From: Deltaproteobacteria bacterium
GTDB lineage: Bacteria > Desulfobacterota > RBG-13-43-22
NCBI GenBank assembly: GCA_016219225.1
Contig: JACRBX010000316.1
Location: forward strand, 1-34,581
DNA: 34,581 nucleotides
Direction: 5' to 3'
Shown here: piece by piece, positions 4,401 to 23,588 of the stretch
How positions within the stretch are numbered: the stretch's first letter is position 1
Layout: each line of letters opens with the position of its first letter
Made by a program: the position numbers and the translations under genes
The notes under the pieces: generated by a model
The model's input: only the letters and a program-made list of their open reading frames with translations
The model's database searches: none
What the model was told of the DNA's origin: nothing

Positions 4401-4431
4401 TTCATGCTCTTCACTATCATATATTTATTTC

Positions 4432-4611: not shown

Positions 4612-4783
4612 CTATATCCGCCTCCAGGTCATCAGCACTTTTCTTAGCCGAAGTTCCGACTAAACTCATTTGAGTTTGAAAAAATAGAGCGGCCTATCCG
4701 GAAATTATTGGGGTTTTCTGAATTTTGTAATGAAGTAAATTACCGCTGGCCCTTACTGGACCGAAGCTATTCGGTTTGCCAGC

Positions 4784-5065
4784 TCAACCCATGCAAGCCG
4801 GGTAGTGGATCGAGATCTCGTCACGATCCTGAAGCACTGTTTCCATACTTTTCTGATAGTAGACAAACATCCGGTTTTTGGTAACCAGGACATCCCTCCT
4901 AAGTCTTGTGTTATCTTCATAAAAAAGTGTTTTTCTTTGAGATTCGGTTTTGCAAATAAATTCCAACAGATCTCGTACTGTGGCCCTGTCTGGAAGTTCA
5001 ACTTCCGTTTTTTCAAATTGAAAGGCATCTCGAAATCTGGAATGAAATTTTAACGTGATTTTCAC
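4784..5065 (-). CDS. MoaD/ThiS-like ubiquitin-fold protein without the terminal diglycine
   Basis: This is a 93-residue small protein with a GTG start. The pattern ITLKFHSRFRD, then VELPDRATVRDLLEFI, then VLVTKNRMFVYYQ and DRDEISIHYPA follows the beta-grasp layout of MoaD, the sulfur carrier of molybdopterin synthesis. Functional MoaD and ThiS end in GG, which is adenylated and thiocarboxylated. This protein ends ACMG and then stops, so the usual chemistry would be impaired. It follows the binding-protein gene of the transport operon and a perfect 12-bp hairpin. A role in pterin supply for the upstream molybdenum enzyme is tempting but unproven. Confidence 0.6.
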   Translation of the reverse strand: MKITLKFHSRFRDAFQFEKTEVELPDRATVRDLLEFICKTESQRKTLFYEDNTRLRRDVLVTKNRMFVYYQKSMETVLQDRDEISIHYPACMG

Positions 5066-5079
5066 GGCAATTCTTTCTA

Positions 5080-5116
5080 GGAACCATCCCGAATAAGATA
5101 ACTCCGGGATGGTTCC
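5080..5116 (-). other. Perfect 12-bp intergenic hairpin before the MoaD-like gene
   Basis: GGAACCATCCCG at 5080-5091 is exactly complementary to CGGGATGGTTCC at 5105-5116, with a 13-base loop. It lies between the stop of the binding-protein gene and the GTG of the MoaD-like gene. On the minus strand no T-run follows, so a classical intrinsic terminator is unlikely. A 3'-end-stabilising or attenuating stem within the operon transcript fits better. Confidence 0.55.
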
Positions 5117-5142
5117 TTCTTCCGGAAATACCCACTAAACAA

Positions 5143-6516
5143 CTACTTCACAAGAAGGTCTTTCCCGAAAACTCCATCTCCCCAGTACATATCCTCTTTA
5201 TAATACCACCCGAGATACTTAGCCTGGTTTTTATCAATGATGACGCGTGCATAATGAGGCAAAATGAGCTGATTTACATACATTTTCATTGAGGGTGCAG
5301 TCTGCGGCGTTACGAAAACCTGTCCCGGACCTCTGACACCATCAACTTTCAGCTTCAGCATTGCAGACTTGATTTTGTCGCTGTCTGTCATGGTGTTAGC
5401 ATTCTCCACCGCTTTAGCGAGGAACAACATCTGATCATATCCGTTATCCTCCAAAAGGCCAGGGAGACGCTTATGCTTGGCCTGCATTTTATTGATAAAT
5501 TCCGCGCGCATCGGATATTTTTGAGCTACTTCAAGCGGCATATCCTGGCCGGTGGACAAGCTGCCTTTCAAGCTGATCCCTTCTTTCCATAACGGATCTA
5601 TGACATGGCCCCAGTTGAAGTCGTCATTGGTATTAACGAGCAGTAAGTTGCCATTAGGTCCAAAGTCATATCCCATTTCTTTAAGCGCCCGACATAATTT
5701 AAGGGTATCTTCGTAGATATAAAGACCGACGTAGATGATGTCGGGTTTGCTGGCCATCATCCGCTGCACATAGGGGGTCACATCGGTGGTTCCAATAGGA
5801 TACATAGTCCCGCCAACGTACGTCAATCCCTGACTTTTGCCGAAAGTTTCAATCGCTGCTTTGGCGCCAAGATCGGCATAAACGCAGTACATTTCATCCC
5901 TTCCGTAATAGGCCACTTTCTTGTTTTTGAAAACGTACCGTTTATCAACTGCCGGATCAATACCGGCCTTCTTCAACTTTTCAGGTTTATCGGTTAACAG
6001 CCTCACAAGAGAGACGGATTCAGTCCAACCCGAGTCACCTAGCAGTACCCCGTATTTTTTCCCCAGAAACACACCAGGATAAGAAGCGACAGCCGCAACT
6101 ACAAATACCTTCTTCTTTTCAGTAATCTGCTGACAAGCTTCTATAGCTTCGTTCATTCTGAGGCCAACAATTACTTTGACTTTGTCCTTATTGATCAATG
6201 AGTATGTGGCGTCTATTGCCTTCTTGGGGCTGGCTTCATCATCGAAATAAATTACTTCAATGGGCCGTTTCTTCCCCTGAACCATTACACCTCCATTTTT
6301 ATTTAAGTCCGCAAGGGCGATTTCAATTCCATCTTTTTCAAGAAGGCCCATGGCTGCCATTGGCCCACTTAGGGTTAGGATCGCTCCGACCTTGAATGTT
6401 TCCGGTTGTTTCTCTGCCGCCGTGGCATTTTTCACTAAATACAGGGGGCACAGCACCATTGCCAATACAAGTAGTCCTGCCAAACAATGTCTCCACTTTT
6501 CAATTTTAACGCACAT
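5143..6516 (-). CDS. Periplasmic substrate-binding protein of a Liv-type ABC transporter
   Basis: This 457-residue protein of the type I periplasmic-binding fold (Peripla_BP_6, LivK-like) starts with a signal peptide: a basic n-region, the hydrophobic stretch CLAGLLVLAMVLCPLYLV and a probable cleavage after NATA. The mature start TFKVGAILTLSGPMAAMG is typical of the family. At 457 residues it is longer than LivK (about 370), as seen in binding proteins for aromatic or organic acids. It is the last member of the livHMGF group, 107 bases after livF. The ligand is probably the compound degraded by this gene array rather than a branched-chain amino acid; that is inference from context. Confidence 0.88.
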   Translation of the reverse strand: MCVKIEKWRHCLAGLLVLAMVLCPLYLVKNATAAEKQPETFKVGAILTLSGPMAAMGLLEKDGIEIALADLNKNGGVMVQGKKRPIEVIYFDDEASPKKAIDATYSLINKDKVKVIVGLRMNEAIEACQQITEKKKVFVVAAVASYPGVFLGKKYGVLLGDSGWTESVSLVRLLTDKPEKLKKAGIDPAVDKRYVFKNKKVAYYGRDEMYCVYADLGAKAAIETFGKSQGLTYVGGTMYPIGTTDVTPYVQRMMASKPDIIYVGLYIYEDTLKLCRALKEMGYDFGPNGNLLLVNTNDDFNWGHVIDPLWKEGISLKGSLSTGQDMPLEVAQKYPMRAEFINKMQAKHKRLPGLLEDNGYDQMLFLAKAVENANTMTDSDKIKSAMLKLKVDGVRGPGQVFVTPQTAPSMKMYVNQLILPHYARVIIDKNQAKYLGWYYKEDMYWGDGVFGKDLLVK

Positions 6517-6623
6517 AGCACGCTCCTTTTAAATTCTTCCCCTCTATTGATTTGGGGAATTTTTTAAATATTTAAAAGCTCCACCTGATAAAGATATACG
6601 TTGCTCAGCAATACACCATACTC

Positions 6624-7328
6624 TCAGGCACCCAAATAGGCCTTCCTTATTTCTTCTTCCCTGGACATTAGATTATCCGTTGTTCCTTCTGCGACGATTC
6701 TTCCATTCGAAATGACGTAACCTCGTGTGGCCGAACCCAAGGCAAATTTGGCATTTTGCTCCACAAGCAACACTGTCAAACCTAATTGAACCAAATGTTT
6801 TATGGTTGTTGCAAGATTCTTGACAATTATTGGAGCCAAACCCAAACAAGGCTCATCCATGATCAACAACTTGGGATCATTCATTAAGGCTCGGCCAACA
6901 ACCAGCATGGATTGTTCTCCCCCGCTTAAAGTCCCTCCTTTCTGTTTTGATCTTTCTTGCAATCTTGGGAATATTTGAAAAATTTCGTCCAATTTCTTTT
7001 TGTTACTTTTGGTATCATGAACATAGCCGCCCACCAGAAGATTTTCCAAAACCGTCATTTCATAAAATACCTTGCGTCCTTCCGGTACTTGTGAAATACC
7101 CAAACGCACGATATCGGATGTAGGCAGGCCTTTCAAATCTTTACCTTCAAAAGCTACTCTCCCACTTCCAATATTTATCAACCCGCAAATGCTCCGCAGA
7201 AGAGTTGATTTTCCAGATCCGTTAGGGCCAAACAAGGATACTATTTCGCCTTTTTCAACAGTCAGATCCAGACCGTGCAAAACCTCTGTTTTTCCATATC
7301 TTACAAAGATATTCTTAATGGTCAGCAC
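6624..7328 (-). CDS. livF: Branched-chain-type ABC transporter ATP-binding protein LivF
   Basis: This 234-residue ABC ATPase has Walker A GPNGSGKST, signature LSGGEQSML, and Walker B LLIMDEPCLGL. A longer frame extends upstream into livG, but the GTG at 7328 (giving VLTIKNIFVRYG) matches the usual LivF start and length. It overlaps or abuts the livG stop within ATGATGTG, indicating translational coupling. It forms the nucleotide-binding heterodimer with LivG. Confidence 0.92.
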   Translation of the reverse strand: MLTIKNIFVRYGKTEVLHGLDLTVEKGEIVSLFGPNGSGKSTLLRSICGLINIGSGRVAFEGKDLKGLPTSDIVRLGISQVPEGRKVFYEMTVLENLLVGGYVHDTKSNKKKLDEIFQIFPRLQERSKQKGGTLSGGEQSMLVVGRALMNDPKLLIMDEPCLGLAPIIVKNLATTIKHLVQLGLTVLLVEQNAKFALGSATRGYVISNGRIVAEGTTDNLMSREEEIRKAYLGA

Positions 7329-7329
7329 A

Positions 7330-8097
7330 TCATTCTCCCAGATATACTTCGGATACCTTTTTACTACTGATAATCTCCGAAGGAGTCCCTTCGCAGACAA
7401 GTTCGCCAAAATTTAGAACCATCACCCTGTCCGCTACACTCATGACCGCCTCTAAGTTATGATCTATCAGCAATATGGATGTCCCCGCTGTTTTTGTTTT
7501 TCTCATCAAATCCAAAACCTCTTGTGATTCAGATTGGTTTAGTCCAGCCAGCGGCTCATCCAACAGCAACAATTTAGGCTCAGATGCCAACGCAGACGCG
7601 ACGGCCACTCTTTTTTTGTCAATAATGGATAATTCATTTACCGGCCTATTCATGTATTTGCTGTTAAAATTGACGAACTTTAAAACGTCTTTGAGTATGT
7701 TTGATGCACGTTCATCGGTTTCTCTTTGGCTTCTATTGATAGAAATGAGACTCAAAATATTCCTTAGACCTGTTTTGACCCGCGACGAATGGCCGATAAT
7801 TATATTATCTGCGGCCGTGAGATTTTCAAAAACAGTAAGAGTCTGAAAGGTTCTTGCTATCCCCAATTTGACGATATCATGTCGGGGTAAGCCATCAAGG
7901 CTTCTTTGGCAAAAAACCACATGACCTTTGTCTGGCTTTATAAAATTGGTTAGCAGGTTGAGCAAAGTGGTTTTTCCTGCTCCATTCGGTCCGATCAAAG
8001 CTAAAATAGTCGCTTTCTCGATTTCGAAACTGACCTCCCTTATTGCATTTAGGCCTCCAAACGATTTACAAAGATTTTCCGCTTTAAGTAGGATCAT
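7330..8097 (-). CDS. livG: Branched-chain-type ABC transporter ATP-binding protein LivG
   Basis: This 255-residue ABC ATPase has Walker A GPNGAGKTT and Walker B LLLLDEPLAGL. The signature region reads VNELSIIDKKRVAVA in place of canonical LSGGQ, so the C-loop is degenerate: LSIIDKKR. The last residues (VSEVYLGE) are typical of LivG. It overlaps livM by 14 bases and is followed at once by livF. With LivF it powers uptake by the LivH/LivM channel. Confidence 0.9.
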   Translation of the reverse strand: MILLKAENLCKSFGGLNAIREVSFEIEKATILALIGPNGAGKTTLLNLLTNFIKPDKGHVVFCQRSLDGLPRHDIVKLGIARTFQTLTVFENLTAADNIIIGHSSRVKTGLRNILSLISINRSQRETDERASNILKDVLKFVNFNSKYMNRPVNELSIIDKKRVAVASALASEPKLLLLDEPLAGLNQSESQEVLDLMRKTKTAGTSILLIDHNLEAVMSVADRVMVLNFGELVCEGTPSEIISSKKVSEVYLGE

Positions 8098-9037
8098 CGC
8101 TTATTGTCCGGCTTAAAATAGTTTTTAACAAACCTGCAATCCCGCCCCTGAGATAGAGCATCACCAATACAATGATCAACCCATACGCCACCATGCGCCA
8201 ATTACCCAGCACTTCTAAATAGAGCGACAATGTAATAAGAAGGTAAGCTCCGAAGAAGGGTCCTATGAGACTGGCCAGCCCGCCGATAATGATAATGGTT
8301 ATGAATTCCGTAGACCCGGCCATGGCAAAGGAACCCGGATCAATATGACCCAGGTAAAAGCCATAGAGCACTCCTCCTAATCCAGCAAGGAGGCATGTTA
8401 AGGCAAAGCACTGGGATTTTCTCGCGTTAACGTTAACTCCAAGGGATTCCGCTAAGGACTCATTTTCTCGTATGGCAATCAGTTCCTTACCGAACTGTGA
8501 CTTTACGAGCAAGGCAATACCGCTTACAACCAGGAGTACCATGAAATGAATGAAGTAGTACCAATGAATTAATTCGAATTCCAAATCATATAAACCTGGT
8601 ATGATGATCCCTGCCCTAGGGAGGTTGAGTCCCATAAATCCACCGGTGACCGGAGACCAGTTATAATAAATGGAATAAAATATTTCTCCTAAAATAAGCG
8701 TCCCGATTGAAAAATATATGCCTGACAATCTAAGAATTGCCACTCCCAACAAGAGGGCAAAAAAAGCCGTCAAAATGGGAGCCACCGCTAAGCCCACCCA
8801 GAATGAAACTCCAAAGCGTTGCGCTAAAACTGCAGAGATATAGGCCCCTATCCCCACAAATGCGGCATTCCCAAAGGATACATACCCCATATACCCGGTA
8901 AGCAGATTCAACCCCGATGCTATGATAATCAAAACCCCGGTTATGGTCATCAAATGAACAATATTTTCCGGGGCGATGGCTGGAATAGCGGCATAACCCA
9001 AAAGGATAATCCCGATGATGAGGTTCTTTTTATTCAA
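8084..9037 (-). CDS. livM: Branched-chain-type ABC transporter permease LivM
   Basis: This 317-residue integral membrane protein has about eight to nine hydrophobic segments. It contains the family stretches SGLNLLTGYMGYVSFGNAAF and AIRENESLAESLGVN, the latter being the cytoplasmic coupling region that contacts the ATPases. The start is a TTG just after the livH stop, with GGGGAATGA as a plausible ribosome site. It forms the translocation channel with LivH. Confidence 0.92.
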   Translation of the reverse strand: MNKKNLIIGIILLGYAAIPAIAPENIVHLMTITGVLIIIASGLNLLTGYMGYVSFGNAAFVGIGAYISAVLAQRFGVSFWVGLAVAPILTAFFALLLGVAILRLSGIYFSIGTLILGEIFYSIYYNWSPVTGGFMGLNLPRAGIIIPGLYDLEFELIHWYYFIHFMVLLVVSGIALLVKSQFGKELIAIRENESLAESLGVNVNARKSQCFALTCLLAGLGGVLYGFYLGHIDPGSFAMAGSTEFITIIIIGGLASLIGPFFGAYLLITLSLYLEVLGNWRMVAYGLIIVLVMLYLRGGIAGLLKTILSRTISDDPT

Positions 9038-9040
9038 AGC

Positions 9041-9907
9041 TCATTCCCCGAAAAGGCCTTTTGGCCGCAAAATGAAAATGATCAAAAGTGTGAGCATCGT
9101 GAAGGCATAAGCGAAGGTAGGGGCAACGGCAAAAGCCAAAACATTTTGTAGTACACCGACCATCAGTCCAGCTATTACAGTGCCCAGGATGCTCCCCATG
9201 CCTCCAAAAACCACGATGACAAATGCCATGATCATCGGAGAAAAGCCCATGGCCGGGTTTACCGAAGCAAGTGACCCAACCATGGAACCAGCTACCGCGG
9301 CGAAAGCGCCACCCAAAAAAAACACGGAAAAGGATACTCGATTTGTGTTAATTCCCACCAATTGGGCTGTTTCTGAATCTGAGCTTGCCGCCCTGATGGC
9401 CCGGCCAATTTTAGTCTTTTTTAGCACGGCAGCCATCGACAGAAGAATAATCAGACACAGCCCGGCCAATATTAATTTTTGTAAATTGGCATACAGGCCC
9501 CAGAACCTGAATACTTTCTGATTAGCTATGGCATGGATGTGAAGCTCTCTGGGGCCCATGATTATCCAGCCAATATTCTCTAGCGCATAATAAATCCCCA
9601 AACCAGCCACTAAAGCCACCCAATCTGCACTGCCCTTCAATTGCCGAAACACGCTCCTTTCTATGAAAACCGAAAGCCCTCCTGCCAGAACCATGGCAAT
9701 GAAGGTAGCCAGATAAATATTGAATCCCAACTTGGTCGCAAATATGTGACAGGCAAAGGCCCCCCACATATAGACTGCTCCGTGAGCCAGATTAATTATG
9801 CGATAGACACCGAAAATCAAGGTAAGCCCCAAGGCAACCAAAATGTAGCTGGTGCCGGTGAGCAACCCGTTCAGTATCTGCTGACTAATTATGTCAAATG
9901 TAAACAT
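9041..9907 (-). CDS. livH: Branched-chain-type ABC transporter permease LivH
   Basis: This is a 288-residue membrane protein if read from MFTFDIISQQILNG. An earlier in-frame ATG at 9940 would add 11 residues overlapping the upstream gene and gives no better ribosome site, so the shorter start is preferred. LivH landmarks are GLTLIFGVYRIINLAHGA near the N-terminus and a glycine-rich VVFGGMGSILGTVIAG near the end. It lies directly downstream of the molybdenum enzyme genes, linking uptake to catabolism. Confidence 0.9.
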   Translation of the reverse strand: MFTFDIISQQILNGLLTGTSYILVALGLTLIFGVYRIINLAHGAVYMWGAFACHIFATKLGFNIYLATFIAMVLAGGLSVFIERSVFRQLKGSADWVALVAGLGIYYALENIGWIIMGPRELHIHAIANQKVFRFWGLYANLQKLILAGLCLIILLSMAAVLKKTKIGRAIRAASSDSETAQLVGINTNRVSFSVFFLGGAFAAVAGSMVGSLASVNPAMGFSPMIMAFVIVVFGGMGSILGTVIAGLMVGVLQNVLAFAVAPTFAYAFTMLTLLIIFILRPKGLFGE

Positions 9908-9914
9908 GAAATTC

Positions 9915-10892
9915 TTAGTCGAAACAGCCCAGAACAGCATTGGTTACTAAAGTTTTCGCAACAGGGACCATGAAATCATTGTCGCCCAACGGCTGAGCCC
10001 CCTCAATTGCCGCCTCACCGGCACCTTCTGCAACCTCTCTGGATATTTCTTTCACGATCAAAAATTGTTCAGCAGAAACAGCACGGTACGGTTTTACATA
10101 GACCGCATTTAAACAAACCCGTGCCCCCGTAACGTGACCACCTGTGTTCCATAAAGCTGCGGCACAATTGACAATTGGAAAATCAATTGATTTCCTAAAA
10201 GCGAACTTCAAAAAAGTGCTCCTGCTTTTTTTGGGGAGTTTTGGAATGTGTATTTCGGTGACGATTTCGGCATCCCCAAGCACCGTCGTTTTCGTGACCT
10301 CAACCTGAAAAAAATCTTCAACCTTTATCCTTCTTTTCGATGTTTGTACATAGGCTCCAAGGGCCACCAAAGCCGGGGCCAGATCGCTTGGATGGACGGC
10401 CAAACACCCTTCTGGCACGCTGCCCCCGAATATGGAGTGGTATCGTTTGTCCCCTTCCCAGGCATAACATCGTCCCCCTCCTTTGCGTAAACAAGGAAAG
10501 CGATTTCCAGGGTTCCGATAATACCAGCAGCGAATGTCCTGGCTGATATTACCTCCAATCGTGCCCATCTCCCGAAGGTGAGGGGAAGCGGTTCTTCGCG
10601 CAGCCTGGGCCAAGGCCCTATATTTGTTTTTAATGGTCGGATGATGAGCAATGTCTTCCAAAACCGTCAGCGCCCCTATCCTAAGAAAGCCATCCTTTTC
10701 CTCAATTTCATTCAGGCCTTTAATCGTTTTTATATTGACCAAAGCCTCGGGATAGGTTGGAAGAATGCGGTCTTTCATCTTGCCGAGCAGATCCGTCCCT
10801 CCGGCGATCACCTTGGCCTTGCCCCGGTAGCGTTCCAGAATTGATACGGCCTCATCTATCGTCTTGGCATTAAAATGTTCGAAAGTCTTCAT
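9915..10892 (-). CDS. FAD-binding subunit of a molybdenum hydroxylase, with an extra 4Fe-4S loop (4-hydroxybenzoyl-CoA reductase beta type)
   Basis: This 325-residue subunit has the CoxM/HcrB FAD domain, with VIAGGTDLL near residue 29 and GTIGGNIS near 110. After GGNIS comes an insertion with cysteines at residues 122, 134, 142 and 163 (DIRCWYYRNP, FPCLRKGGG, RCYAWEG, EGCLAVHPSD). In the beta subunit of 4-hydroxybenzoyl-CoA reductase a comparable loop holds a fourth, [4Fe-4S], cluster that shuttles electrons between FAD and the 2Fe-2S centres. Carbon monoxide dehydrogenase and ordinary xanthine dehydrogenases lack it. Its ATG overlaps the TAA of the large-subunit gene by one base. The cluster is inferred from cysteine spacing. 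Confidence 0.87.
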   Translation of the reverse strand: MKTFEHFNAKTIDEAVSILERYRGKAKVIAGGTDLLGKMKDRILPTYPEALVNIKTIKGLNEIEEKDGFLRIGALTVLEDIAHHPTIKNKYRALAQAARRTASPHLREMGTIGGNISQDIRCWYYRNPGNRFPCLRKGGGRCYAWEGDKRYHSIFGGSVPEGCLAVHPSDLAPALVALGAYVQTSKRRIKVEDFFQVEVTKTTVLGDAEIVTEIHIPKLPKKSRSTFLKFAFRKSIDFPIVNCAAALWNTGGHVTGARVCLNAVYVKPYRAVSAEQFLIVKEISREVAEGAGEAAIEGAQPLGDNDFMVPVAKTLVTNAVLGCFD

Positions 10893-13342
10893 TAGCTTTC
10901 ACCCCTAATTTTTCCTAACGCTCTTAGAATTCTGCTGGGTGTAATAGGATAATCATCGATCCATATTCCTATGGCATTGTAAACCGCCGGACCCAAGAGA
11001 GCCGGAATTATAGTCGCCACATCCTCCCCAATCCCAACCAAACCGTAAGGTCCGAAACCCAATTTGGATTCCATAAGAATGGTGTCAATCGGCCCACAAT
11101 CTTCTATGGTCGCGATCTTGTAATCCAGCAAATTGCCATTGAGCATGACTCCAGTTACCGGATCATGGATCACTTCTTCCCATAAAGCCCTCCCTACACC
11201 CATGTAAGTTCCCCCGTACATCTGGCCTTCACAGGCCATGGGATTTATCGCCTTGCCGACGTCATTGACGTTGACCACTTTGGTTACGGTAATTCCTCCG
11301 GTTTCCGGGTCGACTTCCACTTCCATAAAATGGGCCTGCCGGATGAATCTTGGCCTAACTCCGCCCCGGTAGGCTCCTACCTGAACATGATAGCCATAGG
11401 CAAACATGGGTTCGCTGAAGGGCGTGCGCTCCGTTCCGTATAATTCATAAAAGACCATGGAGCCTTGATCCCCTGAAGGGCCTACGAATTCTGCCAGAGT
11501 CAGCCTTTTGGTCGGGTCTTTTTTGACGAAAATAACGCTTTCTTTGATGTCCAGATCTTCAGGCCTGCAATCTGGGAAGAAAGGCGGATAGCTGCCGCGC
11601 TGGGTTACGGCCCTAAGACTGGTAGCCGCTTTTAATATTTTTTCTCTCAAAATCCGTGCGGCATGTCTTACCGCGAAACCGTTAACGCTCATGTTAGTCG
11701 AGGAATCCGGGGTTGCGGTGAAGAAACCGGGATCAACATGGGGCCGGTAAAAAACATCCTCGATTTTCATACCTATTTCATCGGCAGCTATTTGACAGTA
11801 AGCCGTTTCGGCATTTACACCATTGTCACAACGCATTCCCAAGATTCTTAAGGTTCCGTCATTGCGCTCCAGGCGCAGAGCGATCTCTCCAGACCCGGCT
11901 GAGTCTTCCCATTCATGGTTCCATGTGAATCCTAACCCGTGCATCCGGCCATTGGGCAGCTTCCTGGCTCCGGGAGGATGCCAATTTTGGTCCCAGTTAA
12001 TCGCCTTCTTTCCGGCTTGAACACAATCCCGGAGACTACTAGTATCAGGAAACCCCATTTTTTTCTTTTCTTCCCTGGCCCACTCCATGTCATGTCCGTG
12101 AACACCATCGTTTTTCATCGCTACATCAATCGGGTCAAGTCCCAAATGGGTGGCCACATGATCAAAAACCAGGGTCAGTGTATGTGTATTGGGAAGCTGC
12201 TCGCAACGGACGGCTGTATTAGGACCTTTGTTGGTAAGGGCCAGAGATCGTTTTCCATAAAGGTTTGGAATTTTTGTGCATTCTTCTAGATGCAGAACCG
12301 GCCCTTGTCCACCCCACATGGGATTGGAATAAATTGTCTCTGCTTTTACAGCCATAATGGTCCCGTCTTTTTTGGCCCCAACCTTGTAATGATGAAAGCC
12401 CTCATCCATGGACCCTCCATAAAAATCCTCTCTTCGTGTGAAAGTCCATTTAATGGGTCGTCCGGTTCTATGGGATAAGATCGCGGCACAATAATTTCCA
12501 GCCAAGTTCCAACCGAATTGAGACCATCCGCCAAAGCTGGCCCCCTGATAGAGGATGTGGAGTTCAATCCGGTTCATAGGGATTCCCCCGAACCAGGAGG
12601 ATACCGCCCGTTTGACGATGTGAGGTCGTTGCTGTTTACACCAAATCTCTGGATATTCACCATTCCATCGCCAAACGCCACAAGGCCGTTCGGGGCTAAT
12701 ATAAGTATGTTGGGTTCGGCGGGAAGAGAAATCAAAAACCACGTCGGAATCCTGAAAACCTTTCTCAACGTCACCCCGACCCGACTCATAAACCGCTTCC
12801 AGATTGCTATCTGGAAAATCTTCAGGATTTACCAGAGGGGCACCGGGTTTCAAGCTGTCTCTCGGATCCAGGATAAAAGCACGCGTGGTCCATTCGACAT
12901 TTATAAGTTCCAAGGCCTCTTCGGCAATATCCTCTGATTCGGCGGCAACGGCTGCTCCGACCTCCTCCCCTTGAAAATGGGCCACACCAGGTAAAGGCAT
13001 CCTTGGAGAGACACCGTGACCGCCTAAGTCCTCTTCTACCTGGACCGAAGGATCGTCGTATCTGAGAATGGCCCGAATTCCAGGCAATGTCTCAGCTCTG
13101 CTGATGTCCATGCTTTTAATGGCGGCGTGGGGGTAGGGTGAAGTAAGAAACCGCATGTAAAGCATTCCTGGGAGTCGAATATCCATTGTGTAATTAGCAT
13201 AGCCACTGGCTTTCTCGATTCCATCCAGGCGGCGCACCCCACTGTTTCCGATATTGAGTTGCCTCTCCTCCGGGAGCGGATATCGGTCGAATGTCAAATT
13301 ATCCAACAGTTCTCTGGCTTTTTCTTTTTCGCTTTTAGCCAT
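10892..13342 (-). CDS. Molybdopterin-binding catalytic subunit, xanthine dehydrogenase / 4-hydroxybenzoyl-CoA reductase family
   Basis: This 816-residue catalytic subunit binds the Mo-pterin cytosine dinucleotide cofactor. Near the C-terminus GLVGIGEDV carries the conserved glutamate that acts as base in this family. The motif usually written GGGFGGK reads GASFGGW here, so one cofactor-contact loop is divergent. The start MAKSEKEKARELL at 13342 is chosen over a longer frame because GGAGGAGAGAGGTG lies just before it; it overlaps the small-subunit stop by 8 bases. The order small-large-FAD differs from hcrCAB naming but gives a complete three-subunit enzyme. The substrate is unknown; with the 4Fe-4S loop in the partner subunit, an aromatic acyl-CoA or N-heterocycle is plausible. 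Confidence 0.9.
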   Translation of the reverse strand: MAKSEKEKARELLDNLTFDRYPLPEERQLNIGNSGVRRLDGIEKASGYANYTMDIRLPGMLYMRFLTSPYPHAAIKSMDISRAETLPGIRAILRYDDPSVQVEEDLGGHGVSPRMPLPGVAHFQGEEVGAAVAAESEDIAEEALELINVEWTTRAFILDPRDSLKPGAPLVNPEDFPDSNLEAVYESGRGDVEKGFQDSDVVFDFSSRRTQHTYISPERPCGVWRWNGEYPEIWCKQQRPHIVKRAVSSWFGGIPMNRIELHILYQGASFGGWSQFGWNLAGNYCAAILSHRTGRPIKWTFTRREDFYGGSMDEGFHHYKVGAKKDGTIMAVKAETIYSNPMWGGQGPVLHLEECTKIPNLYGKRSLALTNKGPNTAVRCEQLPNTHTLTLVFDHVATHLGLDPIDVAMKNDGVHGHDMEWAREEKKKMGFPDTSSLRDCVQAGKKAINWDQNWHPPGARKLPNGRMHGLGFTWNHEWEDSAGSGEIALRLERNDGTLRILGMRCDNGVNAETAYCQIAADEIGMKIEDVFYRPHVDPGFFTATPDSSTNMSVNGFAVRHAARILREKILKAATSLRAVTQRGSYPPFFPDCRPEDLDIKESVIFVKKDPTKRLTLAEFVGPSGDQGSMVFYELYGTERTPFSEPMFAYGYHVQVGAYRGGVRPRFIRQAHFMEVEVDPETGGITVTKVVNVNDVGKAINPMACEGQMYGGTYMGVGRALWEEVIHDPVTGVMLNGNLLDYKIATIEDCGPIDTILMESKLGFGPYGLVGIGEDVATIIPALLGPAVYNAIGIWIDDYPITPSRILRALGKIRGES

Positions 13343-13937
13343 TTTCAACACCTCTCTCCTCCGCCTGCAGCTTTTTGGAAACCTGGAGAATGGCCTTGGG
13401 GTGCTGTGGATAGGTGCCACACCGGCATAGATTGCCACCTAGGGCTTCCTGAATTTCTTCCAGAGACGGATTAGGATTTCTGTCCAATAATGCCTTGGCA
13501 GTGGTCAAAAAACCGGGGGTGCAGTATCCGCATTGCATACAGTGGTTTTCCACGTAGGCTTCAATTAATGGGTGCTTGGCAGCGGCAATACCTTCCGCAG
13601 TTACAATTGATTTTCCGTCACACTCGATTGCCAGAACCATGCAGGACAAAATCGGGCGGCCATCCATAATTACCGTGCAGGACCCGCAGGCACCGCGGTC
13701 ACAAAACATCTTAGGGGAAGTCAGCCCGATTACATCATGGATTAGGTAGTTCAATGTCCATTCTGGCCTTACCAAAATCTGGAATTCTTCCCCATTAATT
13801 TTCAGCCTAGTCAAACCTTCTATCAATGGATCAGGTTCCTCCCTATGCGCCTGAAGGACATGTGTTTTCAGCCTTTCAAAATTTTCACAGAGTTCTGCAC
13901 AATACGGGCACAAGTACTTGCTTTTTTCCTCTTTCAT
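13335..13937 (-). CDS. 2Fe-2S subunit of the molybdenum hydroxylase with an N-terminal C2H2 zinc-finger-like extension
   Basis: Residues 45-195 are a standard CoxS-type subunit. The plant-type cluster uses C79, C84, C87 and C99 (FCDRGACGSCTV, LSCM), and the second 2Fe-2S cluster uses C136, C139, C171 and C173 (CMQCGYCTPG, CRCGTYP). Ahead of it, residues 1-40 form CPYC followed 12 residues later by H-x4-H (C10, C13, H26, H31), the spacing of a C2H2 zinc finger. Typical subunits are about 150-165 residues, so the extra 40 are real excess. The ATG has GGAG about 9 bases upstream. It is followed by the large subunit with an 8-base overlap. Confidence 0.9.
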   Translation of the reverse strand: MKEEKSKYLCPYCAELCENFERLKTHVLQAHREEPDPLIEGLTRLKINGEEFQILVRPEWTLNYLIHDVIGLTSPKMFCDRGACGSCTVIMDGRPILSCMVLAIECDGKSIVTAEGIAAAKHPLIEAYVENHCMQCGYCTPGFLTTAKALLDRNPNPSLEEIQEALGGNLCRCGTYPQHPKAILQVSKKLQAEERGVENG

Positions 13938-13950
13938 ACCCTCTCCAATC

Positions 13951-15213
13951 CTAATCCTGGTTGTAAGATGCCGGCTTTCCGGAAGACGGTATAGACTTCA
14001 GGCTCCTGAGCAATACCGATTGACTGATCCGACCTGCGAACGCTTCCCGAAAATATTGCAGACTGTCGCGCACCGGAGTAGGTGCCGACTGGCCGAGACC
14101 GCATAGTGAAGCGGAGGCCATTGGGGCACATGAGACCTCCAAAATCTCAAGGTCACCCTGGACTCCCTCGCCATTTACTAATCGGTCCAATACTTCGATT
14201 AAACATTCAATCCCTTCCCGGCATGGTGTACAAAGCCCACAGGATTCCTCGTTCAGAAACTCTATAGTTCTATAGAGGAAATCCACCATATCTCGGCTGT
14301 GGTCGAAGACGATCACGGCACCGGAACCCAAGACGGATTCATAGGCTAAGGGAATATCGATCATAGAAAAAGGAAGGACCCGCCCGGTGGAACCGCCCAC
14401 CTGAACCATCATAACGTCCTCTCCCCCGGCCAAACCAATCACAAGATCCTTGAGGCTGCTACCCATCTCCAACTCATAGATCCCGGGCCGGGAGACATCT
14501 CCGCTGACACAAAAAAGCTTGGTCCCCTTGCTTTCCTTGGTGCCCATCCGGCTATACCAATCAGCCCCATTCCGGATAATTAAAGGAACATTAGCCAGAG
14601 TCTCCACATTGTTAATAATAGTTGGAAAACCAAAAAGGCCGTTTACCGGTGGAAAAGGCGGTCGAAATCTGGCCTCGCCCCTCTTTCCTTCAATTGAATT
14701 CATAAGGGCCGATTCCTCACCGCATATATAAGCGCCGGCTCCTTCCCTGATTTCGATATCCAGTTCCTCCAATAATCCGCTGTCTTCGGCCTGCCGAAGA
14801 GCATTTCGCAGGCCCTCCAGTAAATAGCGATACTCCGCGCGGAGATATATGAAGGCTTTCTCCGCCCCAATGGCGAAAGCCGAGATCGCCATCCCCTCCA
14901 ACAAACTGAACGGGTCGTTTTGGATGAGAAATCGATCCTTGAAAGTGCCCACCTCACCCTCATCAGCGTTACAGATGAGATACTTTTTCTCCCCTTCGGC
15001 CCTTCCCGCCAATTCCCACTTTAACCCGCAGGGAAATCCGGCGCCGCCCCGCCCCCGCAAACCCGCCCGTTTTATCTCTTCAATGACCTGTTGGGGAGTC
15101 ATAGTTTTGCGAGCCTTTCGCCAGGCCTGCAAACCCTGTTTTGCCAAATAAGTATTTATGTCCTTAGGATCGATAAGGCCGCAATTCTCGGTTAAAATTC
15201 TTTTTTCAGACAC
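13951..15213 (-). CDS. NuoF-like NADH-binding FMN flavoprotein
   Basis: This 420-residue protein resembles complex I subunit NuoF and the flavoproteins of NAD-linked hydrogenases and formate dehydrogenases. GLRGRGGAGFPCGLKW (about residues 52-67) is the FMN/NADH loop, GAGAYICGEESALM lies in the nucleotide site, and ESCGLCTPCREG plus SLCGLG supply the [4Fe-4S] N3-type ligands. It lacks the C-terminal double ferredoxin domain that the second NuoF-like protein (33232-34581) has. It is sandwiched between a NuoE-like and a molybdenum-enzyme gene, so it probably moves electrons between NAD(P)H and the Mo enzyme or ferredoxin. Which direction is not visible. Confidence 0.9.
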   Translation of the reverse strand: MSEKRILTENCGLIDPKDINTYLAKQGLQAWRKARKTMTPQQVIEEIKRAGLRGRGGAGFPCGLKWELAGRAEGEKKYLICNADEGEVGTFKDRFLIQNDPFSLLEGMAISAFAIGAEKAFIYLRAEYRYLLEGLRNALRQAEDSGLLEELDIEIREGAGAYICGEESALMNSIEGKRGEARFRPPFPPVNGLFGFPTIINNVETLANVPLIIRNGADWYSRMGTKESKGTKLFCVSGDVSRPGIYELEMGSSLKDLVIGLAGGEDVMMVQVGGSTGRVLPFSMIDIPLAYESVLGSGAVIVFDHSRDMVDFLYRTIEFLNEESCGLCTPCREGIECLIEVLDRLVNGEGVQGDLEILEVSCAPMASASLCGLGQSAPTPVRDSLQYFREAFAGRISQSVLLRSLKSIPSSGKPASYNQD

Positions 15214-15233
15214 TGCTTGTTCCTCCAGTGGGG

Positions 15234-15662
15234 TTAATCAAATGATTTCAGGATCTTGGCAACCCTCTCCTGGTTGAGATCCCCATAGAGCACATCATCA
15301 ACAAGCATGGCGGGCGACTGGTCACATGCTCCAATGCAGTTGGTCAGCTCAAAACTGAACCGGCCATCGGGCGTTGTCTCTCCCGCATTGACTCCCAGAT
15401 AATCACCAATCCAAGAAGCTACCATTTCTGAGCGTTTTAAATGGCAGGGCACACTCTTACAAGATCGGACGACATGTTTGCCTTGAGGTTTTACAGAAAA
15501 GAATGTGTGGAATGTGACCACGCCGTAAACTTCGGCCACGGGAATACCGAGCCACTGAGCCATGGAAAACATAGAAGATTTAGAAACGAACCCTAATGTT
15601 CGTTGCTCTTCGGTGATCATCGCCAAGAGCGTATCCCTTTTATCTGTGGATATGCCGGTCAT
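15234..15662 (-). CDS. NuoE-like thioredoxin-fold 2Fe-2S subunit
   Basis: This 142-residue protein has the NuoE/HydC layout: a helical N-terminus with ITEEQRTLGFVSKSSM, GVVTFHTFFSVKP, then the four cluster cysteines in CKSVPC and CIGAC (C-x4-C and C-x3-C). It is somewhat shorter than complex I NuoE (about 166) but normal for the soluble modules. It lies 20 bases before the NuoF-like gene and 14 bases after the NuoG-like one. Confidence 0.9.
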   Translation of the reverse strand: MTGISTDKRDTLLAMITEEQRTLGFVSKSSMFSMAQWLGIPVAEVYGVVTFHTFFSVKPQGKHVVRSCKSVPCHLKRSEMVASWIGDYLGVNAGETTPDGRFSFELTNCIGACDQSPAMLVDDVLYGDLNQERVAKILKSFD

Positions 15663-15676
15663 TTTTAGCTACTCCT

Positions 15677-16312
15677 TTACCCTGTTTTAGTCAGTGCGCT
15701 GGTAGGACAAAAATCAACACACACACCGCATTCCAGACACTCGGTTTTATTTAGAGTCCCATCACAATCCACAACTACTTTGGAGGAAAAACCCCGGTAA
15801 GCCATCGAGAGAATATTCTTTTTCGCGATCTCCTTGCAGGCCCTGATACAGCGCCTGCAAAGAATACATTTTGAAAGATCACGCCGAACATAAGAATTGA
15901 TTTCCTCCACTGGATAAAGCCGGGGATTTTTAACCCGGAATCGAGGCAGCCCAATCTCCATCTCAGCGGCCAACCTATGGAGTTCGCAATTTCCGACATT
16001 CGAATCCATTACACAAGGCCCGGTGTGCGCGGTCAGTAACCACTCCAATACCGCTCGTCGCGCCTCCAATACCATAGGGGAGCCCGTAAATATGACCATT
16101 CCCTCGTTAATCGGGGTGTGGCAAGAAGCCACCAGACGTGGAGCACCTTTAACCTCAACCAGACAGATACGGCAATTTCCGCTGGGGGTTAATTCCGGGC
16201 TATGGCAAAGGGTGGGAATGTAAATTCCTTCATTTTTTGCTGTTTCAAAAATCGTTTTCCCCCGTTTCCCGACTATTTCCTTTTCATTGATTCTCAGGGT
16301 AATTTCTTTCAT
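15677..16312 (-). CDS. NuoG/HydA-like N-terminal iron-sulfur subunit (2Fe-2S, modified HxxxC motif, two 4Fe-4S)
   Basis: About 211 residues, equal to only the N-terminal iron-sulfur part of NuoG. A plant-type 2Fe-2S domain (CHSPELTPSGNCRICLVEV then SCH) is followed by HTGPCVMDSNVGNCELH, where the usual H-x3-C-x2-C-x5-C has Asp in place of the middle Cys. Two 4Fe-4S motifs follow (CILCRRCIRACKE and CLECGVCVDFCP). No molybdopterin domain follows, so catalysis must be supplied by a partner, presumably the Mo hydroxylase encoded downstream. I start at MKEITLR (16312), which has GGGGAAG upstream; an ATG four codons earlier lacks a ribosome site. Confidence 0.88.
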   Translation of the reverse strand: MKEITLRINEKEIVGKRGKTIFETAKNEGIYIPTLCHSPELTPSGNCRICLVEVKGAPRLVASCHTPINEGMVIFTGSPMVLEARRAVLEWLLTAHTGPCVMDSNVGNCELHRLAAEMEIGLPRFRVKNPRLYPVEEINSYVRRDLSKCILCRRCIRACKEIAKKNILSMAYRGFSSKVVVDCDGTLNKTECLECGVCVDFCPTSALTKTG

Positions 16313-16349
16313 TTGCTTCCCCATTAAATATTTCTAAGATTTTAAAGAA

Positions 16350-17108
16350 TTACCATGCCAGCCAGCCACCATCCACGGGCATTATCGTCCCATGGATAAA
16401 ATCTGAAGCCGAAGAGGCCAGGAATACAACGGCTCCGGCAATATCATTCGGAACCCCCCATCTGCCGGCCGGAATACGTTTTTGGATAAGATCATAACGG
16501 TCTTTATCTTCCTGGAGCGCTTTTGTAAACCCGGTGGCGAAATACCCGGGGGCGATGGCGTTAACATTGATCCCTTCGCCGGCCCAGGCATTAGAGAAAG
16601 CTTTGGTCAGCCCCACCAGGCCATGCTTGGAAGCGGTATAGGCCGGTATATTTATTCCTCCTTGAAAGGCCAGGATGGAGGCCACCGTAATAATTTTCCC
16701 CTGTTTTTTTTTGACCATCAGCTTGGCGGCTCCCTGTGACAATATAAAATTGGCGGTGAGGTTGATTTCCAGGGTGGTATCCCAATCCGCTTCCGAAAAA
16801 TCCAAGACGGGGGCCCTCGGACAAATCCCGGCATTGTTGACCAGGATATCCAGCTTATCCATTTTTTGTAAAACCGCCGGGATGACGGTCCTCGTTTCAT
16901 TTCTTTTGGTCAGGTCGGCCGGATAATGGAAATATCGTTTTCCCGTTGATAGGATAGCCTTTTCGATCCCCGGATCTCCTTGGCGGCTGACTACCGCCAC
17001 ATCCGCCCCGGCCTCGGCTAAGGCCTGGGCGATGGCGCCGCCGATGCCTTTGGTACCGCCGGTCACCAGGGCCACCTTCCCATCTATCCGAAATGCATCC
17101 AAAATCAT
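16350..17108 (-). CDS. Short-chain dehydrogenase, KduD-like
   Basis: This 252-residue classical SDR has the cofactor motif TGGTKGIG, NNAG, and catalytic YTASK. The flanks MILDAF.IDGKVALVTG and RIPAGRWGVPNDIAGAVVFLASSASD...VDGGWLAW follow E. coli KduD (2-dehydro-3-deoxy-D-gluconate 5-dehydrogenase, 253 residues) closely from memory. Close relatives act on many hydroxy or oxo acids, so no exact substrate is claimed. It sits between the oxoacid oxidoreductase genes and the NuoG-like gene, with short gaps consistent with co-transcription. Confidence 0.85.
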   Translation of the reverse strand: MILDAFRIDGKVALVTGGTKGIGGAIAQALAEAGADVAVVSRQGDPGIEKAILSTGKRYFHYPADLTKRNETRTVIPAVLQKMDKLDILVNNAGICPRAPVLDFSEADWDTTLEINLTANFILSQGAAKLMVKKKQGKIITVASILAFQGGINIPAYTASKHGLVGLTKAFSNAWAGEGINVNAIAPGYFATGFTKALQEDKDRYDLIQKRIPAGRWGVPNDIAGAVVFLASSASDFIHGTIMPVDGGWLAW

Positions 17109-17149: not shown

Positions 17150-18049
17150 TCAATTTAATAAACCGAACTTTTCGATGTTCCTGTCCGCAAGGGCCTGGAT
17201 CTGCCTGAGTGCTTCTGATCCCCCTTTTCCCGCAAATAAGTGTCTGAACCGTTTCTGGGGTTTTAAATAGGATTCCACCGGAATTTTTTGCTTAATTTTT
17301 CGAATGGTCTTGATTTGGCCCTCTTCCATTTCAAAGAGGGGAACCAAACCGCACTGAACCCCCAGCCTGCCGATTTCCAGGGTTTGATCGGAAGGAAAAC
17401 CCCAGACAGAGGGACAGGGTGTATCAATCTGGATATATCGGGAGCCGTGGTATGTCATGGCTTTTTTGACTTTTTCCCGTAAGTCCCTAAGATAAGCGGA
17501 TGAAGCAGTGGCTACGTAAGGGATCCCGTGAGCGGCTACAATAGCCGGAAGGTCTTTTTTGATTTGCCTTTTGCCCATGGAGGCCTTGCCGGCCGGTTCG
17601 GTGGTCGTCGAAGAAAATAATGGTGTGGCGCCGCTTCGTTGCCCCCCAGTGTTCATATAGGCCCCATTATCAACACAGATGTATAACACATCATCCTCAC
17701 GCTCCAGCATCCCGGACAGGGCACCAAACCCGATATCGAAGGTAGACCCGTCACCACCTATGACCAGAACCCTTACACTATCCTGCTTTTGGGCTTTGAG
17801 GGCCGCGGCGACGCCGGAAGCGACGGATGGGCCATTTTCAAACAGGTGATGGATCCAGGGAACACGCCAGGGAGAAAATCCATAGGGGGAGGAAAAGGTT
17901 TCCAGACAACCGGTGGGAGTCACTACAATAACTTCCTTCCCGGTGGCCCTTAAAATGTGTCTGACCGCCAAGGCCATACCGCAACCGTGGCAGGCCCTGT
18001 GACCTGAAACGAAGTAATCTTCTTTTTTTTGGTAAGGCTTCTTTCCCAT
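17150..18049 (-). CDS. porB: 2-oxoacid:ferredoxin oxidoreductase, beta (TPP-binding) subunit
   Basis: This 299-residue subunit binds thiamine diphosphate; the motif GDGSTFDIGFGALSGMLER with NGAYMNTGGQRSG is the TPP/Mg site of PorB. The N-terminal CHGCGMALAVRH carries two of the cysteines that hold a proximal [4Fe-4S] cluster. It oxidatively decarboxylates a 2-oxoacid to acyl-CoA with reduction of ferredoxin, working with the alpha, gamma and delta subunits encoded immediately upstream. It could be pyruvate, 2-oxoisovalerate or another oxoacid; I use the por symbol only for the subunit type. Confidence 0.9.
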   Translation of the reverse strand: MGKKPYQKKEDYFVSGHRACHGCGMALAVRHILRATGKEVIVVTPTGCLETFSSPYGFSPWRVPWIHHLFENGPSVASGVAAALKAQKQDSVRVLVIGGDGSTFDIGFGALSGMLEREDDVLYICVDNGAYMNTGGQRSGATPLFSSTTTEPAGKASMGKRQIKKDLPAIVAAHGIPYVATASSAYLRDLREKVKKAMTYHGSRYIQIDTPCPSVWGFPSDQTLEIGRLGVQCGLVPLFEMEEGQIKTIRKIKQKIPVESYLKPQKRFRHLFAGKGGSEALRQIQALADRNIEKFGLLN

Positions 18050-18059
18050 AATCGATCCC

Positions 18060-19250
18060 TCAGGGGAAAAGGGTCGGATTAAGTCCCACCCAGTTGGGTT
18101 CTTTCAGGAAAGGTGGTTTTTTTCCCACCGTATCCAACTGTTGTAAAATATTACGCAAAGCCCTTTTATTGATTTCTCTCCCACCCAAACCGGCAATAAA
18201 GTCCACCAGGAGAGGGGCATTTTTCAGGCCATACAACTTGGCTTTCAAATCCATGCCTACGGCCCCTTCGCTCCCCATGGAAATGTTCGCATCCAAAACC
18301 GCGATCCTCCTAGCGCCTTTGATGGCTTCCCAAATATCTTCAAAGGGAAAAGGACGATAACACCGAATTTTTACCATTCCTATTTGATGACCCTCGGACC
18401 GTAGATCATCCACCGACTCCTTGACCGTTCCGGATACCGAACCCAGGGCGATTACTATGGTGTCCGCGTCTTCCGTCCTGTAGGCTTCGACCAGGCCCCG
18501 ATAATCTCGCCCGGTTAATAGAGACAGCTCCTTAAAAATCTCCCTGATCCTTTGTTTCCCATCCTGCATCGCCTGGTGAACTGCGTATTTGAATTCCATC
18601 AGGACATTGTCATCGGCATAGGATCCCCAGCTTTTGGGGTTTTTTATGTCCAAAAAGTGCTCTGGTTCGAAAGGGGAGAGAAAGCGGTCAATCTCTTCCT
18701 GTCCCATATAAGCCACGCTTTCATAGGAATGGGTCAGTATCCAACCATCCATACACACCATAACCGGAAGGGAAATCTTAGGGTCTTCAGCAATTTTAAA
18801 GGCGGCAATATGGGTATCGTAAGCCTCCTGGACGCTTTCGACATAAAGCTGAATGATTCCCGAATCCCGCAGACTCATGGTATCCTGGTGATCGACCTGA
18901 ATGCTGATCGGGGCTGAAATGGTTCGATTAACCCCGGTTATTACAAAAGGAAGGCGCATCCCGGCGCTGGCATAGATTACTTCGGTCATGAGCAGTAATC
19001 CCTGGGAAGACGATGCAGTATAAGCCCGACTCCCGGTGGCAGAGGCTCCACTGACGACGCTGGCTGCCGAAAATTCGGATTCAACCCGGACATACTGCGC
19101 ATCCAGTTCTCCATCAGCCACCATTTTGGCCAGGTTTTCGACGATATGGGTTTGGGGACTTATGGGATAAGCCGAGACAACCTGGGGCCGGCAGGCTTTT
19201 ATCGCCATGGCTACGGCCTCCGATCCTTCAACGACACTCATTCGGTCCAT
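18060..19250 (-). CDS. porA: 2-oxoacid:ferredoxin oxidoreductase, alpha subunit
   Basis: This 396-residue PorA-type subunit shows AYPISPQTHIVENLA (the conserved TPP-contact YPITPxT stretch, with S for T), ASSSQGLLLMTEVIYASAGMRLP and DHQDTMSLRDSGIIQLY. It lies 10 bases before the beta gene and one base after the delta gene. It forms the active site together with the beta subunit. Confidence 0.92.
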   Translation of the reverse strand: MDRMSVVEGSEAVAMAIKACRPQVVSAYPISPQTHIVENLAKMVADGELDAQYVRVESEFSAASVVSGASATGSRAYTASSSQGLLLMTEVIYASAGMRLPFVITGVNRTISAPISIQVDHQDTMSLRDSGIIQLYVESVQEAYDTHIAAFKIAEDPKISLPVMVCMDGWILTHSYESVAYMGQEEIDRFLSPFEPEHFLDIKNPKSWGSYADDNVLMEFKYAVHQAMQDGKQRIREIFKELSLLTGRDYRGLVEAYRTEDADTIVIALGSVSGTVKESVDDLRSEGHQIGMVKIRCYRPFPFEDIWEAIKGARRIAVLDANISMGSEGAVGMDLKAKLYGLKNAPLLVDFIAGLGGREINKRALRNILQQLDTVGKKPPFLKEPNWVGLNPTLFP

Positions 19251-19251
19251 A

Positions 19252-19509
19252 TTATTTCTCCTCCGGAATCATTTGAATGGCTTCCGTAGGACATTCACGG
19301 GCACAAATTCCGCACCCTTTACAGAAGTCGTAATCGATGGAGAAAGCCCCATCTTCCACATGAATAGCCCCATCCGGGCAATCTTCTTCACAAACCCCGC
19401 AGGCTTTGCACCATGATTGATTAAGGACCGGTTTTTGATCCCGCCAGTCTCCGGTTTTATATTCGAGGGAAGTCCCGCCGGTTACGACAGCCCCTTTGGT
19501 AATTTTCAT
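19252..19509 (-). CDS. porD: 2-oxoacid:ferredoxin oxidoreductase, delta (8Fe ferredoxin) subunit
   Basis: This 85-residue protein has two [4Fe-4S] motifs, CKACGVCEEDCPDGAI and CKGCGICARECPTEAI. It carries electrons from the TPP subunit to external ferredoxin. It overlaps the gamma gene by four bases (ATGA), so the two are translationally coupled. Confidence 0.93.
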   Translation of the reverse strand: MKITKGAVVTGGTSLEYKTGDWRDQKPVLNQSWCKACGVCEEDCPDGAIHVEDGAFSIDYDFCKGCGICARECPTEAIQMIPEEK

Positions 19510-20060
19510 TTATTTTCCCTCAATAAATATTTATAGCTTTCTTCCACTACCAGAACGTTTTTCTCACCCAGACTCCCGGAAAATTTACTTCGAACCGCCC
19601 GTAGAACGGCCTCTAAACTTAATTCTCCGGTGATTGCGGCAAAGGCCCCCAATAACGCTGTATTCATGATGGGTCTTCCCAGAATTTTCCTGGCTAATTC
19701 TTCGGCAGAAAAAATGATAAAGCGAAAGTTTTTAGGTACTTCAAGAGCCTCAGGGGACTTGTCTGTATTAATCAACACCATTCCTCCAGGTTTCAACCCT
19801 TCAAAAACGTCGACTTCTTTTAGGATAGTCGGGTCCTGCACTATGGTGTAGTCAGGTTCACTCACCCGACTCCTTATTCGGATGGGCTCTTTATTGATCC
19901 GGCAGTAGGCTATAATCGGTTTCCCTCGCCGCTCCCCCCCACCCCCCAAAAAGGGAAAAGCCTGACCGAACCTTCCATCTTCCGAAGCGGCGATAGCCAT
20001 GAATTGAGCCAGGACCAAGGATCCCTGTCCTCCCCTTCCGTGAATGGTAATTTCTTTCAT
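19506..20060 (-). CDS. porG: 2-oxoacid:ferredoxin oxidoreductase, gamma subunit
   Basis: This 184-residue PorG-type subunit begins KEITIHGRGGQGSLVLAQ, the family signature GRGGQG. FPFLGGGGERRGKPI and MVLINTDKSPEALEVP follow. It is the first structural gene after iclR, and a composite operator lies 18-46 bases upstream of its start, so it probably opens the catabolic transcript. Confidence 0.92.
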   Translation of the reverse strand: MKEITIHGRGGQGSLVLAQFMAIAASEDGRFGQAFPFLGGGGERRGKPIIAYCRINKEPIRIRSRVSEPDYTIVQDPTILKEVDVFEGLKPGGMVLINTDKSPEALEVPKNFRFIIFSAEELARKILGRPIMNTALLGAFAAITGELSLEAVLRAVRSKFSGSLGEKNVLVVEESYKYLLRENK

Positions 20061-23490: not shown

Positions 23491-23502
23491 AATAAATTCC
23501 TT

Positions 23503-23520: not shown

Positions 23521-23588
23521 TACGGTGCAAGGTGAAAACAACAAACGCATTAACCCACGATTTTACCCTGAACCTTACACCTTGAACC

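Follow-up and report, generated by a model that had tools for sequence, protein, structure and literature searches.

A six-gene operon joining a Nuo-type NAD module to a xanthine-oxidase-family molybdenum enzyme in a deltaproteobacterium, with signs of an exchangeable molybdopterin subunit

Gene content of the operon

The window (the whole stretch of 34,581 nucleotides that was analysed, contig JACRBX010000316.1 of a Deltaproteobacteria bacterium) contains on its minus strand, between positions 9915 and 16324, six genes in the order NuoG'-NuoE-NuoF-MoS-MoL-MoFAD. The first three encode NuoG' (215 residues; 15677-16324), which corresponds to the N-terminal iron-sulfur part of proteins of the NuoG/HydA/HoxU type, a NuoE-like [2Fe-2S] subunit of the thioredoxin fold (142 residues; 15234-15662), and a NuoF-like FMN/NAD(H)/[4Fe-4S] subunit (420 residues; 13951-15213) that has a non-bifurcating residue pattern and no terminal ferredoxin domain. 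The other three encode MoS, a subunit for two [2Fe-2S] clusters with a C2H2 zinc-finger-like N-terminal extension (200 residues; 13335-13937), MoL, a molybdopterin subunit of the xanthine-oxidase family (10892-13438, with a likely start at ATG 13342), and MoFAD, an FAD subunit with a four-cysteine insert of the type found in 4-hydroxybenzoyl-CoA reductase (HCR) and aldehyde oxidase (9915-10892). The intergenic gaps are 14 nt (NuoG'/NuoE), 20 nt (NuoE/NuoF) and 13 nt (NuoF/MoS), and there are overlaps of 8 nt between MoS and MoL, counted from ATG 13342, and of 1 nt between MoL and MoFAD.

All six family assignments are far above chance, the family searches giving E values of 2e-133 for NuoF (TIGR01959), 4e-41 for NuoE (PF01257), 8e-60 for NuoG' (HoxU/HydA-type N-terminal region), 1.5e-87 for MoL (TIGR03194), 5e-41 for MoFAD (PF00941) and 4e-26 for MoS (PF01799). 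The Mo proteins contain the domains of a three-subunit xanthine-oxidase-family enzyme (MoCoBD domains, Ald_Xan_dh_C, FAD_binding_5 and Fer2_2), and NuoE, NuoF and the NuoG N-terminal part make up an NAD-linked module of the FdsABG/HoxFU kind, with conserved cluster ligands except for an Asp at one ligand position of the NuoG His-Cys cluster. The original prediction, that genes for the small, large and FAD/4Fe-4S subunits of a molybdenum hydroxylase are directly preceded by NuoG-, NuoE- and NuoF-like genes, is thus confirmed for all six; the NuoG-like gene is present, but as the N-terminal part rather than the whole subunit.

Conservation in related genomes

MoL searches of genomes of the same phylum, together with the surroundings of the matches, gave a clade of 26 MoL loci with at least 44% identity, in which L094, nearly identical to L052 but found in a different genome, was counted, L023 and L051, which share one contig, were counted once, and L055 (40% identity to MoL, with no Nuo genes in the stretch examined) was excluded. 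Nuo genes adjoin the Mo genes in 18 of the 26 (the window, L023, L024, L056, L057, L058, L052, L094, L093, L053, L054, L084, L085, both sets of L086, L091, L096 and L090, the last counted by the end of a NuoF at the contig edge). They were not seen in five loci (L089, L092, L095, L088 and L009, the last from the window's genome), of which L088 and L009 lie close to contig ends, and three loci (L072, L087 and L049) are cut by contig ends. A Desulfarculaceae MAG (L023) and HGW-Deltaproteobacteria-12 (L024) have close relatives of the whole operon and were the sole matches in a scan of genome contigs. A tblastn search against plasmids returned 992 records, all below 60% identity and with the eight matches listed at about 31%, and no close relatives among them.

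The gene orders found across loci include G-E-F-S-L-FAD, G-E-F-L-S-FAD and S-L-FAD-G-E, and four loci (L053, L054, L084 and L093) have a NuoG-NuoE fusion; thus, the link between Nuo and Mo genes has survived rearrangement. A 740-residue open reading frame in L052 was considered as a NuoGEF fusion and rejected, as tblastn placed NuoF in a different frame from NuoG and NuoE. Most of these genomes are in many contigs, so that binning errors are possible. XdhC-like and MocA-like genes for the Mo cofactor, named by eye, lie directly behind the Mo genes in L052 (5916-7609) and L093 (7003-9182). In the window's genome, L009 (contig C58) contains at 8843-12366 two adjoining clade MoL genes and MoFAD, with no MoS; the second MoL is truncated by the contig end, and only one clade MoS was found in that genome.

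Several sequence signatures are shared by these loci. The zinc-finger-like motif of MoS (13845-13910, minus strand) reads C10-x2-C13-x12-H26-x4-H31, and an N-terminal extension of the form C-x2-C-x(11,12)-H-x(4,5)-H is present in 16 of 17 full-length Nuo-linked MoS proteins, the odd one (L093) missing one His. None of seven MoS proteins from other loci of the window's genome has the extension. It is also absent from MoS of L092, a locus without Nuo genes, and present in MoS of L089, yet no Nuo genes were seen there. Near the Mo trimer of L092 are EtfA/EtfB-like genes (4354-6170, named by eye), possibly a swap of partner in place of the Nuo module. The four-cysteine insert of MoFAD (10404-10529, minus strand; C122, C134, C142 and C163), a predicted [4Fe-4S] site, aligns with both 1rm6_B (HCR) and 5y6q_B (aldehyde oxidase). 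In NuoG' (15977-16027), H-T-G-P-C-V-M-D-x5-C-x-L-H replaces H-x3-C-x2-C-x5-C, and Asp stands for the second Cys of this cluster in all 15 complete rows. MoL has a conserved Glu (11024-11026) and, where RGxG is usual, an RCEQ motif (12197-12208) that is invariant in 25 of 25 clade rows; nine MoL paralogues of the window's genome have RG or RT at this position. AlphaFold models of MoS and MoFAD, from three-row alignments, were too poor to use (mean pLDDT 53.9 and 52.2).

Five co-evolving subunits and a possibly exchangeable sixth

Co-evolution was assessed by Mantel tests on pairwise distances from 14 complete loci. NuoG', NuoE, NuoF, MoS and MoFAD were mutually correlated (r 0.62-0.76, p 0.001 each), whereas MoL against these five gave r of 0.01-0.21 (p 0.055-0.41); when each was compared with the other platform subunits concatenated, the five reached r of 0.77-0.84 and MoL 0.16 (p 0.125). 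Among the 10 loci of MoL clade A, MoL and the platform were correlated with r 0.84. Clade A has support of 100/100 in the MoL tree, the B-type rows form two supported groups outside it, and a single clade of the four MoL-B loci used is rejected by the platform data (p-AU 8.5e-6). At L086, two tandem platforms are sisters (100/99) and carry heads from MoL clades B and A, an arrangement in which gene conversion could possibly mimic MoL exchange. In another genome, G501, locus L106 consists of NuoG'-E-F-MoS-MoFAD without MoL, MoFAD directly following MoS, and the sole clade MoL of that genome is on a different contig (L095), beside an iron-dependent alcohol dehydrogenase (Fe-ADH) and a 2-oxoacid dehydrogenase complex.

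Taken together, the co-evolution, L086 and G501 put the natural joint around MoL rather than at the boundary of the Nuo and Mo genes, and no other sequence evidence speaks as strongly for a shared complex. These results suggest that NuoG', NuoE, NuoF, MoS and MoFAD are a lasting electron-transfer base that accepts different catalytic subunits. A further extension is less likely than not: one NAD platform may serve several interchangeable MoL subunits, some encoded far off by the pathway of their own substrate, with docking through the zinc-finger-like end of MoS and with a Cys in the MoL loop at the place where CO dehydrogenase holds copper.

Proposed function and relation to known molybdenum enzymes

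The observed gene content, conservation, co-evolution and cluster-ligand patterns are best explained by a single soluble, NAD-linked molybdenum hydroxylase as the product of the six genes, made up of a five-subunit platform and a plug-in MoL, a reading to which we give a probability of about 0.68. What we infer about the physical complex, its direction, its substrate and its cofactors is as follows. MoL, with its Mo cofactor, would oxidise the substrate; electrons would pass from MoL to the two [2Fe-2S] clusters of MoS, then to FAD and the [4Fe-4S] cluster of MoFAD, and from there, by way of the NuoG' iron-sulfur clusters, to the FMN of NuoF (together with NuoE), the site at which NAD+ would be reduced without ferredoxin. 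The platform would remain stable as MoL, the catalytic part, is exchanged, different MoL clades being fitted to similar platforms, and docking may involve the zinc-finger-like N-terminus of MoS. An aldehyde is the probable substrate, for example a 2-hydroxyaldehyde formed from a diol by Fe-ADH, and, to judge from the neighbouring genes, the product would be carried on through 2-hydroxyacid and 2-oxoacid to acyl-CoA.

These neighbours, all on the minus strand, begin upstream with a short-chain dehydrogenase as the next gene (16350-17108), followed by genes for PorB, PorA, a PorD-like protein (19252-19509) and PorC of a 2-oxoacid:ferredoxin oxidoreductase (17150-20060). Behind the operon are an ABC transporter of the LivK-F-G-M-H type (5143-9940) and a MoaD/ThiS-like protein (4784-5065), both also kept behind the operon in L023 and L024 and the MoaD/ThiS-like one recurring near Mo genes, then GlcF-like and GlcD-like subunits of a 2-hydroxyacid oxidase (1869-4400) and an Fe-ADH of the glycerol-dehydrogenase family (538-1692; PRK09423 subfamily, 516 bits with a cut-off of 336). 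Fe-ADH of this type recurs (window, L024, L054, L084, L090, L095 and L088), as do 2-hydroxyacid oxidisers of four kinds, namely GlcDF (window and L023), LutAB-type (L052, L094 and beside L009), LDH/MDH-like (L053) and D-2-hydroxyacid dehydrogenase (L009), and 2-oxoacid oxidoreductases (Por in the window and L053, IOR-beta in L052, E1-E2-E3 in L095, and E2 and E3 in L088). The simplest common scheme would run from diol to hydroxyaldehyde, 2-hydroxyacid, 2-oxoacid and acyl-CoA; the Mo enzyme would act on the aldehyde, and most loci show just part of the scheme. Because the neighbour references were drawn from the clade's own neighbourhoods, the contrast with ten control loci, which gave weak matches (GlcD/GlcF at 25/29% in L062, GlcF at 29% in L068 and E3 at 28% in L066), is biased and is given no statistic.

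Elsewhere in the window, positions 23200-25549 encode a BzdQ-type activase above its cut-off (417 bits with a cut-off of 380), a second activase of the BcrA/D type and a ferredoxin; reductase subunits were not recognised beside these genes. Fragments of a BREX locus (BrxL C-terminus, a PglZ piece and a BrxA piece; 26658-32024) surround three genes that match A, B and C of the PADLOC candidate defence set PDC-M28 over nearly their full length (153, 504 and 611 bits).

Among characterised enzymes, HcrABC (1rm6) is likewise a three-subunit member of the xanthine-oxidase family with a four-cysteine insert in the FAD subunit, and gives the best PDB match of MoL, but unlike HcrABC the operon has its own NAD module and RCEQ for RGxG, and it scores far below the curated HCR cut-offs TIGR03193/4/5 (133.7/257.8, 294.8/994.55 and 154.7/404.55 bits), for which reason filing it under HCR was rejected. 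The 4Fe-4S insert is not diagnostic of HCR, because aldehyde oxidase 5y6q_B aligns across it and both MoL and MoFAD fall far short of the HCR cut-offs. MoFAD finds its best PDB match in 5y6q_B, with all four Cys aligned, and its third in PaoB (5g5g_B), but the large subunits of aldehyde oxidases are little like MoL (PaoC E 2e-32, 5y6q_C 7e-27), which reaches 175.1 of the 1180 bits of the PaoC cut-off NF041671; we know of no Nuo-type partners of the 5y6q enzyme or of PaoABC (5g5g). FdsABG and other soluble NAD-dependent formate dehydrogenases, and HoxFUYH, resemble the operon in joining a catalytic metalloprotein to NuoE/NuoF/NuoG'-like subunits; their catalytic partner is a DMSO-reductase-family or NiFe protein, whereas here a trimer of the xanthine-oxidase family, which brings an FAD and a [4Fe-4S] of its own and is seemingly exchangeable, takes that place. 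Modules of this kind reduce NAD+ without ferredoxin, according to PMC9304861 and PMC7311640.

The HCR-like features might also be read as those of the same complex working in reverse, with NADH driving a reductive dehydroxylation at Mo as in HCR or Ucdh. The match of MoL to HCR (1rm6_A, E 1e-56), the four-cysteine insert, the BzdQ-type gene of aromatic metabolism in the window and the use of NADH by Ucdh, whose closest characterised relative is HCR (as stated in PMC12771579), are consistent with this; however, the HCR cut-offs are missed widely, the neighbours point to oxidation of alcohols, 2-hydroxyacids and 2-oxoacids, and the genome has a closer HCR-like enzyme elsewhere, so reversal seems improbable. 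That enzyme (L061, 8544-12436 on contig C116; 753 of 994.55 bits) has the four-cysteine insert and no Nuo genes.

Dedication of the Nuo module

Nuo genes adjoin none of the nine other Mo-hydroxylase loci fetched from the window's genome, a count that covers the fetched loci and leaves out weaker Mo-hydroxylase matches on C309, C63, C52 and C28; in one of the nine (C180), NuoE/F/G genes of bifurcating type are located about 24 kb from the Mo gene. Conversely, a search of 395 genomes for NuoF at E 1e-135 or better found it in six of them, all six places being clade Mo loci, and in the NuoF tree a branch with support of 100/99 separates 16 Mo-linked NuoF from six other NuoF of the window's genome, among them a second NuoF at the end of the window. 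The exclusive linkage, the separate NuoF branch and the lack of Nuo genes beside the other Mo loci together indicate that the module is dedicated to the Mo enzyme. The six-subunit assembly proposed originally is therefore supported, as a predicted complex, by a conserved and reciprocal linkage that has outlasted gene rearrangement and by the co-evolution of NuoGEF with MoS and MoFAD. It could still be argued that NuoG'EF is a free NADH dehydrogenase, merely co-transcribed with the Mo enzyme, since contact between the subunits is a prediction and five of the 26 loci have no adjacent Nuo genes; in view of the reciprocal exclusivity of NuoF and Mo loci, the co-evolution of Nuo subunits with MoS and MoFAD, and the five-gene platform without MoL in G501, we consider two separate complexes improbable, a little more so than reversal.

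Electron bifurcation

The original prediction also held that the complex might combine NADH and ferredoxin, which is unsupported. Non-bifurcating homologues lack clusters B2-B5, as described by Schut et al. 2022 (PMC9304861), and the residues of bifurcating subunits, by the criteria of Losey et al. 2020 (PMC7311640), are A/E and M, F, and GGPSG. The window NuoF has T and K, Y, and GGSTG at these positions; among clade NuoF, K is present in 15 of 15 and Y in 16 of 16, GGPSG in none of 16, and the bifurcating-type Ala occupies the first position in three of 15. The protein spans residues 115-527 of the 597-residue 7t2r_B, and in this alignment it has neither the N-terminal [2Fe-2S] nor the C-terminal ferredoxin domain of BfuB. 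Other NuoF of the window's genome do have A/M and F (L011, L012, L013 and L017) or GGPSG (L011, L013 and L018). The domain content and residues of NuoF make direct NAD reduction the more likely mode, and bifurcation was rejected on these grounds. A second HoxU-like and NuoF-like pair lies at 32633-34530; its NuoF, which is cut by the contig end, has residues of the bifurcating type and carries a 2x[4Fe-4S] domain at its C-terminus.

A Bfu-type complex in which the Mo reaction is coupled to both NAD(H) and ferredoxin would agree with the homology of the NuoE/F/G' parts and with the top PDB scores of NuoF and NuoG', which are against bifurcating HydB/HydA-type chains (7t2r and others) of this HydABC-type family. 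It is nevertheless very unlikely, as the terminal cluster domains are absent, all clade NuoF that could be read at these positions have K, Y and a non-GGPSG sequence, and the B2-B5 clusters that define Bfu enzymes, in the account given in PMC9304861, have no counterpart in NuoF.

The active-site loop of Mo/Cu CO dehydrogenase has the motif AYxCSFR. RCEQ is found in all 25 clade rows shown, and with both queries tried its Cys aligns with the Cys of AYACSFR in CoxL 8uem_A, the copper-binding Cys of CO dehydrogenase; but an NAD-linked relative of Form I CO dehydrogenase (CoxSML) with a second metal at this invariant Cys is hardly credible, because the rest of the loop motif is absent, family scores are far below the cut-offs (150 of 991 and 178 of 950 bits), and the operon has an importer and alcohol genes not needed for CO oxidation.

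Conclusions

Nuo-type NAD-reducing modules were already known on formate dehydrogenases and hydrogenases, and searches of open-licence papers turned up no account of such a module on an enzyme of the xanthine-oxidase family. By the genomes compared here, this combination is a real, conserved variant, and its Mo subunit shows signs of being exchangeable. The separation of platform and MoL in G501 makes the claim directly testable. If the soluble NAD-linked hydroxylase is as proposed, it would explain how anaerobes can hand the electrons of a Mo hydroxylase straight to NAD+, and it would offer a natural set of parts, in which several catalytic heads share one electron-transfer base, for the engineering of NAD-linked hydroxylations.
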